A DNA stretch of 64,000 bases from Streptomyces sp. ITFR-16 (GTDB lineage Bacteria; Actinomycetota; Actinomycetes; Streptomycetales; Streptomycetaceae), in assembly GCF_031844705.1 (NCBI RefSeq), contig NZ_CP134609.1, positions 6,634,001 through 6,698,000 of the forward strand. The letters are read 5' to 3'. This document shows, piece by piece, positions 2,744 through 20,436 of this stretch; the first letter of the stretch is position 1, and each line of letters opens with the position of its first letter. Under the pieces are notes generated by a model. The model worked only from the letters and a program-made list of their open reading frames with translations. It had not been told where the DNA came from and did not search any database. Both the position numbers and the translations under genes were made by a program.

Positions 2744-3127
2744 GTGGCACGCGTCAAGCGGGCAGTCAACGCCCACAAGAAGCGCCGGGCAATTCTCGAG
2801 GCCGCCAGCGGTTACCGCGGTCAGCGCTCGCGTCTGTACCGCAAGGCCAAGGAGCAGGTCACCCACTCCCTGGTCTACAACTACAACGACCGCAAGAAGC
2901 GCAAGGGCGACTTCCGTCAGCTGTGGATCCAGCGCATCAACGCCGCTGCCCGCCAGAACGGCATGACGTACAACCGCCTCATCCAGGGTCTGAAGGCCGC
3001 CAACATCGAGGTGGACCGCAAGATCCTGGCCGAGCTCGCGGTCAACGACGCCAACGCGTTCGCCGCCCTCGTCGAGGTTGCCCAGAAGGCCCTCCCGAGC
3101 GACGTCAACGCCCCGAAGGCCGCCTGA
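2744..3127 (+). CDS. rplT: 50S ribosomal protein L20
   Basis: A 127-residue protein that binds 23S rRNA early in 50S assembly and, in other bacteria, represses its own operon through the leader RNA. It shows the L20 signature: basic N-terminus [15 protein letters not shown], then [16 protein letters not shown], then the globular half with [18 protein letters not shown]. Start is GTG 2744 with AAGGAG 9 nt upstream. The alanine-rich end NAPKAA is a short extension. It is the last gene of the operon and is followed by a strong hairpin. Confidence 0.97.
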
Positions 3128-17848: not shown

Positions 17849-19000
17849 GTGCCGCAGATCCACGGCCACTGCGACGAGCGGTTCGCCGCGGTGCGCGGCG
17901 CGTTCGAGGCGAATTTCCGTGAGCGCGGCGAACTCGGCGCGGCCGTCACGGTCCTGGTCGACGGAGCGCCCGTGGCCGACCTCTGGGGAGGCTGGGCGGA
18001 CGGTGCGGGGACCCGCCCCTGGGAGCGGGACACCCTGGTCAACGTGTGGTCGACCACCAAGGGGCCCACCGCGCTGTGCGCCCACATCCTCGCCGACCGG
18101 GGGCTGCTCGACCTCGACGCCCCGGTCGCCGCGTACTGGCCGGAATTCGCCGCGGCGGGCAAGGAGTCCGTCCTCGTACGGCATCTGCTCTCGCACCGTG
18201 CCGGCCTCGCGGGTCTGCGCGAGCCGCACACCCTGGCCGAGCTCTACGACTGGGAGCTGACCACCGCCCGGCTCGCCGCGACCGCCCCGTGGTGGGAGCC
18301 CGGCACCCGCTCCGGCTATCACGCGCTCACCTACGGATTCCTGGTCGGCGAGGTGGTCCGCCGGGTCAGCGGGCTGCTGCCGGGGGAGTTCCTCCGGCGG
18401 GAGGTGACCGGCCCGCTCGGGATCGACTTCACGGTCGGACTGCCGGAGAAGGAGGCGGACCGCGTCGCCGAACTCGTCGTCCCCAAGGCGGACCGGGCCC
18501 AGCAGGCGGCGCTGTTCGCGCGGCTGGAGCCGCTGGCCGTCGCCTCGCTGCTCAATCCGCCGACGGGGGCGGCAGCCGCCAACACCCCGGCCTGGCGGGC
18601 GGCGGAGATCCCCGCAGCCAACGGCCACGGCACGGCCCGCGCGGTGGCAGCGCTGTACGCGGTCCTCGCGGGGCGCGGCAGCCACGACGGCCGGCGGATC
18701 CTGTCGGCACAGGCCGCCGAACGGGTCCGCGAGGGCCAGGGCAGCTGCCGCGACCTGGTGCTGGGCGCCGGGTTCGCCCATGAGACGGAGATCGCGCTCG
18801 GCGTCTGGCTGAGCGGCCCGGACGCCAGCTACGGCCCCAACCCCCGCGCCGTGGGCCACGACGGCGCGGGCGGCTCCTGCGGCCTCGCCGACCCGGAGAA
18901 CGGGGTCGCCCTGGGCTATGTGATGAACCGGATGGGGCCCCATCTCGCCGACGACCCGCGCAAGACGGCGCTGATCGACGCGGTGTACGCCTCGCTGTGA
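17849..19000 (+). CDS. Serine hydrolase, class C beta-lactamase/esterase fold
   Basis: A 383-residue enzyme of the beta-lactamase/penicillin-binding-like family, most like cytoplasmic esterases of the EstB/LipL type since no signal peptide is seen. The nucleophile motif SxxK is STTK in NVWSTTKGPTAL (about residue 68), the second motif is YHALTYG (about 158), and the third is HDGAGGS near residue 336. GTG 17849 is chosen: GAGGGAGG ends 5 nt before it. It converges on the HTH/Clp-N gene with only 6 bases between the stops. Confidence 0.87.
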   Translation: MPQIHGHCDERFAAVRGAFEANFRERGELGAAVTVLVDGAPVADLWGGWADGAGTRPWERDTLVNVWSTTKGPTALCAHILADRGLLDLDAPVAAYWPEFAAAGKESVLVRHLLSHRAGLAGLREPHTLAELYDWELTTARLAATAPWWEPGTRSGYHALTYGFLVGEVVRRVSGLLPGEFLRREVTGPLGIDFTVGLPEKEADRVAELVVPKADRAQQAALFARLEPLAVASLLNPPTGAAAANTPAWRAAEIPAANGHGTARAVAALYAVLAGRGSHDGRRILSAQAAERVREGQGSCRDLVLGAGFAHETEIALGVWLSGPDASYGPNPRAVGHDGAGGSCGLADPENGVALGYVMNRMGPHLADDPRKTALIDAVYASL

Positions 19001-19006
19001 GCCGGG

Positions 19007-19777
19007 TCAGCCCTCCTCGGCCGCTGTCTCCCCGGAGGCCGGCTGCTGGGCGTTGACGAGGAGCGACAGGGCCTCGGTGATGCCCCGCTCGGCGGTCTCC
19101 TTGTCGACGCCGAGGCCGCTCAGCGGTCCGCTGCCGTTCTCGTGCTCCAGCAGGGCGAGCAGGATGTGCTCCGTACCGATGTAGTTGTGCCCCAGGCGCA
19201 ACGCCTCGCGGAACGTGAGCTCCAGCGCCTTGCGCGCGTCCGCGTTGTAGGGGATCAGCTCCGGGATCTCGCCCTCGGAGGCCGCCGGGAGGACTTCGGT
19301 GGCGGCCTGGCGGACGGTGTCCAGGACCACGCCCTGTGCCCTGATGAACGCCGCCGCGAGTGCTTCCGGCTCGCTGAGCAGGCCCAGCACCAGGTGCGGG
19401 GTGCCGATCTCGGTGTTGCCGGCGGCGCGCGCCTCGTTCTGCGCGGCCATCACGACGTTCTTGGCGCGGGGGGTGAAGCGGCCGAAGCCCTGGCTGGGGT
19501 CGAGGTCGGAGCCCTCGCCGGGGTCCTTGGCGACGAACCGCTTCTGGGCCGCCTGCCGGGTCACCCCCATGCTCTTGCCGATCTCGGTCCAGGAGGCGCC
19601 GGAGCGCCGTGCCTGGTCCACGAAGTGGCCGATCAGGTGGTCGGCGACATCGCCCAGGTGATCGGCGGCGATGACGGCGTCCTGGAGCTGGTCGAGGGCG
19701 TCGGGATGGACCTTCTTGATGGCCGCGATGAGGTCGTCGAGACGGACCGGCACCGTAGGGCCTGTGGGATGCGTCAT
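19007..19777 (-). CDS. HTH protein with Clp N-terminal repeat domain
   Basis: A 256-residue protein with an unusual domain mix. The N-terminal third contains SGASWTEIGKSMGVTRQAAQKRF (about residues 60-82), a convincing helix-turn-helix. Residues about 100-245 match the double Clp-N repeat of ClpC/ClpA (FTPRAKNVVMAAQNEARAAG, then IGTPHLVLGLL; second repeat ARKALELTFREALRLGHNYI, then GTEHILLALLEHE). There is no AAA+ ATPase domain, so it is not a chaperone subunit. I infer a regulator that uses Clp-N to sense or bind a Clp-type partner or substrate. The ATG at 19777 directly abuts a promoter covered by two palindromes, which suggests autoregulation. Confidence 0.85.
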   Translation of the reverse strand: MTHPTGPTVPVRLDDLIAAIKKVHPDALDQLQDAVIAADHLGDVADHLIGHFVDQARRSGASWTEIGKSMGVTRQAAQKRFVAKDPGEGSDLDPSQGFGRFTPRAKNVVMAAQNEARAAGNTEIGTPHLVLGLLSEPEALAAAFIRAQGVVLDTVRQAATEVLPAASEGEIPELIPYNADARKALELTFREALRLGHNYIGTEHILLALLEHENGSGPLSGLGVDKETAERGITEALSLLVNAQQPASGETAAEEG

Positions 19778-19778
19778 G

Positions 19779-19825
19779 TGTCAACCTTAGGTTGACACAC
19801 CCGGGGTGTCAACTGTCGGTTGACA
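19779..19825 (-). promoter_or_regulatory. Leaderless promoter with two palindromic operators for the HTH/Clp-N gene
   Basis: Two palindromes, TGTCAACCTTAGGTTGACA (19779-19797) and TGTCAACTGTCGGTTGACA (19807-19825), lie 28 bp centre to centre. On the minus strand they include a near-perfect promoter: TTGACA (19812-19807), a 17-bp spacer and TAAGGT (19789-19784), ending 6 nt before the ATG. Transcription should begin at or next to the start codon. Protein bound to either palindrome would block RNA polymerase. Confidence 0.82.
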
Positions 19826-19938: not shown

Positions 19939-20436
19939 TCAGAGGACCCCGGAGTCGGCGATGGTGACCTTCGCCTTGGTGCGGCCGCTCTGCGAGCCGA
20001 GCCCCTCGATCTTCTTGACCAGCTCCATGCTCTGCTCGTCGGCGACCTCGCCGAACACGACGTGCTTGCCGTCCAGCCAGGACGTCACGATCGTGGTGAT
20101 GAAGAACTGCGAGCCGTTCGAGTTCGGGCCGCTGTTCGCCATGGAGAGCAGGCCGGGCTTGGTGTGCGCCAGCTTGAAGTTCTCGTCGTCGAACTTCGCG
20201 CCGTAGATGCTCTTGCCGCCCGTGCCGTCGCCGCGGGTGAAGTCACCGCCCTGGAGCATGAACTCGGGGATGACGCGGTGGAAGGACGAACCCTTGTAGC
20301 CGAAGCCGTGCTCGCCGGTCGCCAGCTGGCGGAAGTTCTCCGCGGTCTTGGGAACGACGTCGTCGAACAGATTGAAGACGATCCGCCCGGCGGGCTCGTC
20401 GTTGATGGTGATGTCGAAGTAAACCTTGCTCGTCAT
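19939..20436 (-). CDS. Peptidyl-prolyl cis-trans isomerase, cyclophilin type
   Basis: A 165-residue cytoplasmic cyclophilin that speeds proline isomerisation in folding proteins. Seen: [18 protein letters not shown] at the start, the active-site segment [22 protein letters not shown] (Arg, Phe and Gln of the catalytic pocket), and [11 protein letters not shown]. There is no signal peptide. The start is ATG 20436; CAGGAT ends 6 nt upstream and no clear ribosome site is present, so a leaderless mRNA is possible. It is transcribed in the same direction as the LysR-like gene 112 bases upstream. Confidence 0.95.

Follow-up and report, generated by a model that had tools for sequence, protein, structure and literature searches.

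The locus examined here lies in a 64,000-nucleotide stretch of the genome of Streptomyces sp. ITFR-16 (the window), where a gene joining a putative helix-turn-helix (HTH) to a double Clp_N domain stands directly behind two promoter palindromes, and it raises the question of which part of such a protein reads DNA, at which promoter and in response to what. A sequence-only reading had seen in it a self-repressing sensor of protein quality or Clp activity, in an arrangement not known as characterised. The latter statement was wrong, the system having been characterised in 2023 by Taylor et al., who described mycobacterial ClpC2 (Rv2667 and its M. smegmatis orthologue) as a repressor of its own promoter (PMC10030653). 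We consider it very probable that the window gene is the Streptomyces orthologue of ClpC2, with a double operator read by the HTH, self-repression and a Clp_N domain that titrates ligand. Sequence analysis establishes the gene, its operators, the leaderless layout, their conservation, the homology of the HTH and its covariation with the operator.

A clpC2-type gene behind a double operator

The following features were placed in the window.

19007..19777, minus strand: clpC2-type gene, dimer/HTH module plus double Clp_N (ORF list, ATG, 256 aa; phmmer; Pfam)
19604..19777, minus strand: helices of the dimer part, residues 1-58 (8ada_B Z 12.4 over residues 10-72; AlphaFold2; alignment)
19535..19591, minus strand: helix-turn-helix, residues 63-81 (AlphaFold2; hhalign with RheA; invariant residues)
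19535..19558, minus strand: proposed recognition helix, residues 74-81, RQAAQKRF (models, covariation; missing from PDB 8ada)
19490..19531, minus strand: linker, residues 83-96 (AlphaFold2 pLDDT <50)
19061..19486, minus strand: double Clp_N domain (residues 98-239) resembling the ClpC1 N-domain, with a proposed role as sensor and sponge (Pfam, phmmer)
19784..19789, minus strand: -10 TAAGGT, within the inner operator, 17-nt spacer, ending 6 nt before the ATG
19807..19812, minus strand: -35 TTGACA, within the outer operator
19779..19797, no strand: inner operator TGTCAACCTTAGGTTGACA, exact 19-bp palindrome over the -10, ending 1 nt before the ATG
19807..19825, no strand: outer operator TGTCAACTGTCGGTTGACA, exact 19-bp palindrome over the -35, spaced 28 bp from the inner operator

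A search against Pfam identified the double Clp_N (PF02861, E 1.8e-26, two stretches) as the sole family above cut-off in the 256-residue product, with no AAA+ modules. The closest solved structures found by phmmer were the ClpC2 chains 9p2p, 8ad9, 8b9o and 8ada, which cover both halves of the protein; 8ada, whose title names the ClpC2 N-terminal domain, matches residues 1-72 at E 6.5e-31. The published salt-bridge pair D46 and R57 is invariant among relatives of the window protein, and of the 26 residues without variation in the N-terminal part, 22 lie within residues 46-80 (39-sequence alignment). No HTH family was named for this part by Pfam or NCBIfam, the best Pfam matches lying below cut-off, and Foldseek returned 8ada alone at a useful E. 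VIA-align placed KorB/ParB HTH domains at Z 5.3-5.5, a level that the tool itself calls common and that therefore argues only weakly for an HTH. AlphaFold2 predicted helices at residues 44-58, 63-70 and 74-81, with block means of pLDDT of 77-86 over residues 41-80, and the N-terminal part modelled alone gave the same helices as the full-length model. The HTH joined to a double Clp-N domain, as first proposed, is thus borne out by Pfam for Clp_N and, for the HTH, by the two modelled helices 63-70 and 74-81 together with the homology to RheA set out below. This evidence for an HTH is more direct than that given by Taylor et al. Upstream of the gene, a cyclophilin-type peptidyl-prolyl isomerase (19939-20436, minus strand) was named by eye.

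Both operators have the form TGTCAAC-N5-GTTGACA. The two palindromes that the sequence-only reading had placed over the -35 and -10 proved exact, the -10 does end 6 nt before the ATG, and a leaderless transcript start is predicted at 19777. A strict sigma-70 scan listed no promoter at the gene; it passes over this one because the -10 is only TAnnnT (TAAGGT, 3/6 against TATAAT). The self-repression and the leaderless start proposed earlier gain support, since exactly these were reported for mycobacterial ClpC2: in many cases two copies of its operator, CGTCAAC-n5-GTTGACG, cover the -35 and -10, and the arrangement points to leaderless transcripts (PMC10030653). The legend of the promoter figure in that paper names seven actinobacteria, and Streptomyces is not among them.

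The palindromes could also be chance repeats or sites of another regulator, the window protein binding no DNA. At up to 3 mismatches the window holds three matches to the palindrome, with an average of 0.77 in shuffled sequences; as 3 of 100 shuffles reach three, this count by itself is unremarkable and would fit chance. The genome search proposed with the sequence-only reading gave a different picture, the window pair being the only exact matches in the 8.12-Mb genome (0.002 expected from the base composition of the window). The pair also keeps its position in all loci scored below, and binding of the orthologue in an electrophoretic mobility shift assay (EMSA) has been published (PMC10030653). 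On these three grounds chance was rejected, and we regard either form of this explanation as extremely improbable. With up to 2 mismatches, 11 places were found in the genome, of which two are the operators, one is the RheA-type operator and 8 are further sites; the reversed pattern gave 2. A 3-mismatch site at 18037 falls within an open reading frame and was attributed to chance, and a wider regulon was rejected as no further exact operator exists anywhere in the genome.

The window protein was searched in 41 genomes, its own included, of which 25 belong to the same genus. In 19 of these 25, a match of E 3e-92 or better runs from the first residues to at least residue 202 (one being ended by a contig end); among the others, one genome has a match in two pieces and five have ClpC-type matches only. 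In the former (L041 of genome G010), the clpC2 frame is broken between the HTH module and Clp_N, and operator-like sites persist upstream. Leaving out this broken locus and the ClpC matches L049-L051, and taking as start codon the first in-frame one past the inner site, the best two sites stood at -48 to -50 and -20 to -21 in 26 of 26 loci (window gene included), with scores of 10-14 of 14 letters. The best 80 of 576 named relatives provided 58 loci matching the N-terminal part (L112-L169), the other 22 (L170-L191) being mainly matches to the Clp_N half and left out of the operator score. All 58 carry an operator pair scoring at least 25/28, spaced 28-29 bp apart and followed by the ATG after 1-2 nt. 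Among 1013 control stretches taken from these loci, scores cluster around 15-16; a value of 26 is reached by two, which may be the promoters of L159 or L169, because the exclusion zone for controls assumed the match to be at 3001.

The part of the protein that reads DNA

In the proposal of Taylor et al., who crystallised ClpC2 as two fragments (residues 4-72 and 94-252), DNA is bound by a helix of the Clp_N half that carries R185 and R189 (PMC10030653). A ClpC2 orthologue whose positively charged Clp_N helix reads the operator, the N-terminal module merely dimerising, would agree with several of their results: the R185A/R189A mutant binds DNA less well, the corresponding M. smegmatis mutant shows 2-fold higher expression, and the dimer mutant R57A a 4.6-fold increase (PMC10030653). 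The two arginines correspond to R190 and R194 of the window protein, and the Clp_N half may therefore contribute to DNA binding. The second arginine, on the other hand, is replaced by Gln in a ClpC-type ATPase of the same genome and by Gly in a split Clp_N protein of that genome (aligned by eye), both of which keep the first. ClpC1 itself, in the experiments of Taylor et al., bound the clpC2 operator weakly and with little specificity (PMC10030653). Taylor et al. moreover cite a C-terminal-domain variant in support of the need for dimers, which implies that this variant bound less well (PMC10030653). The terms 'helix-turn-helix' and 'HTH' are absent from their main text, the 8ada chain ends at residue 72, and the proposed recognition helix, residues 74-81, falls between the two published fragments. 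Two further lines of evidence speak against a Clp_N reader, namely the near-identical operators of HTH proteins that have no Clp_N, such as RheA and small free-standing proteins, and the covariation of the equivalents of residues 76 and 79 with operator bases. Weighing these, we hold a Clp_N reader to be improbable and infer that DNA reading in the window protein maps to the N-terminal HTH; the HTH would make the base contacts, with the Clp_N half perhaps contacting the backbone or keeping the dimer in shape.

RheA is a thermosensing repressor of hsp18 in Streptomyces and is subject to negative autoregulation (PMC11754652). When the N-terminal 90 residues were searched against the own genome, two more matches appeared, both weak (E 2.4e-4 and 0.0018), the latter being a gene divergent from an apparent Hsp20-type gene (by eye), as in the rheA/hsp18 layout. 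The name RheA is given to it on the basis of this layout and of published descriptions (PMC11754652).

G000:C1:1365.4-1366.1 kb (L004 794-1480, minus strand, and 1475-1519): divergent genes of RheA/Hsp18 type, their two tandem operators spaced by 26 bp

Between these two genes lies the 2-mismatch site TGTCATCGTTTGGATGACA. Profile comparison with hhalign showed the HTH segments of ClpC2 and RheA to be homologous over 51 columns (96.5%, E 9e-10), and Pfam detected no Clp_N in the RheA of this genome. We take the published RheA operator to be TGTCATC-N5-GATGACA. When base 6 was allowed to be A or T, the best site reached at least 13/14 in 19 of 30 RheA loci (6 of the 30 being ended by contig ends), and each of these 19 has a second site (9-14 of 14) at 26-27 bp. 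Neither the C-terminal region of RheA, nor a divergent hsp18, nor a TGTCATC operator was found at the window gene (ORF, palindrome and Pfam searches).

A profile of the HTH found matches in each of 21 genomes, including relatives beyond ClpC2 and RheA. In one group, of which 17 loci were examined, a gene for an HTH protein of about 70 residues stands immediately before a distinct Clp_N-like gene; in many cases its stop codon overlaps the next start codon, and the two are apparently translationally coupled. Clp_N scored above cut-off in all 8 downstream proteins scanned, and 16 of the 17 loci have two promoter palindromes with a 4-nt spacer, the inner one 2-4 nt from the ATG; the remaining locus, L231, has one palindrome and an uncertain start. 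One such operon occurs in the own genome.

G000:C1:2601.4-2602.2 kb (L205 374-1155 and upstream): split operon, 69-aa HTH gene overlapping a 191-aa Clp_N gene

Its two sites are the only places in the genome within 1 mismatch of TGTCAAC-N4-GTTGACA. The small HTH protein has no Clp_N of its own, yet the ClpC2 half-site stands before its ATG. It has weak matches to sigma-factor and YlxM HTH models, and its profile found matches in 67 of 118 genomes at E 1e-6, a count that takes in other HTH relatives.

The split loci also made it possible to compare recognition helix and operator. Out of 79 examined, 9 without an HTH by pattern and 7 without a site were set aside, and 63 were used. Ala after the recognition-helix Gln accompanies A at base 6 of the half-site in 51 of 51 loci, and Ser or Thr accompanies G in 12 of 12 (ties at L198 and L267 counted as G); six of the Ala loci have one G among four half-sites. 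The association between this residue and base 6 has a Fisher value of 3.7e-13, which ignores kinship and is inflated by the relatedness of the loci. On a tree built from the adjacent Clp_N proteins, with 57 of the 63 rows, each trait changes 6 times, and 2 independent pairs on supported branches both run in the expected direction, too few for significance. In a second sample of 69 further split loci (48 scored, 15 without an HTH by pattern, 6 without a site), A accompanied Ala in 33 of 35 cases, the other 2 being ties, and G accompanied Ser or Thr in 9 of 12, with 3 ties; a single Gly locus tied, and no case was reversed. As this sample includes several loci from one genome or family and was drawn with a query built from the Ser/Thr rows of the first set, it represents new data and not independent evolution.

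The residue three positions further on covaries with base 7. In the same 48 loci, Arg occurs with C in 8 of 8, Lys with C in 24 of 28 (4 ties), Gln with G in 2 of 4 (2 ties), Ala, Thr or Asn with T in 7 of 7, and one Tyr with A. Among fused ClpC2 genes, for which 80 of 84 loci had a site by pattern, base 7 is C in 258 of 260 half-sites where residue 79 is Lys, and in only 5 of 20 where it is Gln. This covariation ties the second helix of the HTH to half-site bases 6 and 7. We propose a code with two positions. Base 6 would be set by the residue that follows the recognition-helix Gln, Ala going with A and Ser or Thr with G; base 7 would be influenced by the residue three places on, with Lys or Arg paired with C, Gln or Glu tending toward G, and Ala, Thr or Asn paired with T. 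RheA lies outside the base-6 rule, with Ala after Gln but T at base 6, and has one extra residue before the Gln. At a further locus (L226, G011:C6:538.2-540.2 kb), the HTH protein lies in a frame of 131 residues that is preceded by two CGTCAAG-N4-CTTGACG palindromes; its residue for base 7 is Glu, which agrees with this code.

Among the other HTH relatives, the fmt-adjacent group in Streptomyces comprises 11 loci (L212-L222), with a member in the own genome (L012 1312-1842, minus strand) that is divergent from an fmt-like gene (by eye); upstream of the start, 4 of the 11 carry TGGTCAAG-N5-GTTGACCA or a sequence that differs from it by one base. L223 and L224 join the HTH to different C-terminal regions and may be the DUF3887 and DUF2812 fusions of the RelI paper (PMC13284704). 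A pattern search found no GTCA-type site at L207, L211, L223, L224 and L227, at 7 of 70 split loci, or in the fmt-adjacent group. The window HTH-type module is also homologous to the N-terminal module of RelI (9sdc, E 2e-10), an antitoxin (Rv2664) whose authors note the similarity to ClpC2 in the HTH region; in RelI this region is engaged with the RelS toxin, and its authors found no operator (PMC13284704). Where that paper notes the similarity, it makes no claim that the HTH-like region of ClpC2 reads the clpC2 operator. In a literature search with subscription papers mostly outside its reach, we found no publication naming both RheA and ClpC2, no paper on a Streptomyces HTH repressor with a Clp N-terminal domain and no description of the split HTH/Clp_N operon.

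A larger family joining ClpC2, RheA and the split operon is likely. It appears quite probable that ClpC2 belongs, together with RheA and the widespread two-gene operon, to an actinobacterial repressor family with a common HTH reader, and that this HTH, not Clp_N, reads the operator by a simple code. The HTH as the DNA reader of ClpC2 seems to be new and, if true, the published DNA-binding site of ClpC2 needs revision. With the reader in the HTH, ligand binding in Clp_N would have to exert its effect on the HTH from afar and not by direct occlusion of the DNA site. In the split operon reader and sensor are separate proteins, and the transfer of the signal could therefore be studied by mixing the two.

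Ligand and function

In mycobacteria, autorepression, induction by cyclomarin A and the sponge effect have been demonstrated: cyclomarin A derepresses ClpC2, with a 263-fold increase in mRNA in M. smegmatis, and the induced ClpC2 acts as a sponge for cyclomarin A, thereby protecting ClpC1 (PMC10030653). Ilamycin E2 and an ecumicin analogue, according to a 2026 paper, bind ClpC2 without triggering induction (PMC12913811). The Streptomyces protein would be expected to behave as its mycobacterial counterpart in autorepression, induction and sponge effect. The published cyclomarin contacts (Q94, F96, F172 and E181 in M. tuberculosis) correspond to Q96, F98, Y177 and E186 of the window protein, with one conservative change. 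A structure titled ClpC1 F80Y bound to cyclomarin A (PDB 3wde) indicates that a Tyr need not prevent binding.

The proposal of a sensor of protein quality or Clp activity holds in part. A general protein-quality sensor, with unfolded proteins or idle Clp substrates as natural ligand and the induced protein as a holdase relieving ClpC1, would explain the induction of about 2-fold by heat, some binding of casein by ClpC2 and the protection of casein at high ClpC2 (PMC10030653), as well as the kinship of the HTH with that of a heat repressor, RheA. The heat effect, however, is far below that of the published inducer, an antibiotic that targets ClpC1, and the window protein retains the cyclomarin pocket, the Phe-to-Tyr change aside. 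Protein-quality sensing as the general function therefore seems to us possible but doubtful, and it is not exclusive of the ClpC2 orthologue reading, with which it is compatible.

A mechanism can be proposed for the ClpC2 orthologue in which the N-terminal helices would hold the dimer and the recognition helix, residues 74-81, would dock into each half-site of the two tandem palindromes. Bound over the -35 and -10, the dimer would shut the gene's own leaderless promoter. The C-terminal double Clp_N, imitating the ClpC1 N-domain, would bind a ClpC1-targeting cyclic peptide, or possibly unfolded protein, and DNA binding would be lost. Release from DNA would lead to strong induction, and the surplus protein would titrate the ligand away from ClpC1. 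ClpC1-targeting peptides are products of actinomycetes and are studied against mycobacteria; a Streptomyces ClpC2 would be a candidate intrinsic tolerance gene in organisms that are likely to meet them.

Comparison with known systems

The window protein differs from the Clp-ATPases ClpC and ClpA, which have the AAA+ modules that it lacks. It shares its name with the Streptomyces "ClpC2" of PMC9765437, which is a Clp-ATPase working with ClpP1P2. RelI has a homologous N-terminal HTH-type module and differs in binding the RelS toxin, in the lack of an operator found by its authors and in having no Clp_N (PMC13284704). RheA shares the homologous HTH, tandem 19-bp operators with an N5 spacer and negative autoregulation, but is without Clp_N, uses the half-site TGTCATC, is divergent from hsp18 and senses temperature directly (PMC11754652). 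By sequence comparison, ClpC2 and RheA are the same putative reader on a near-same operator, coupled to different sensors. Mycobacterial ClpC2 resembles the window gene in domain order, the dimer residues D46 and R57, the double Clp_N, the cyclomarin-contact positions, the two tandem operators over the -35 and -10 and the leaderless layout; it differs in the outer base of the operator, C/G there and T/A in the window gene, and in one of the two Phe contacts, which is Tyr in the Streptomyces protein (PMC10030653).
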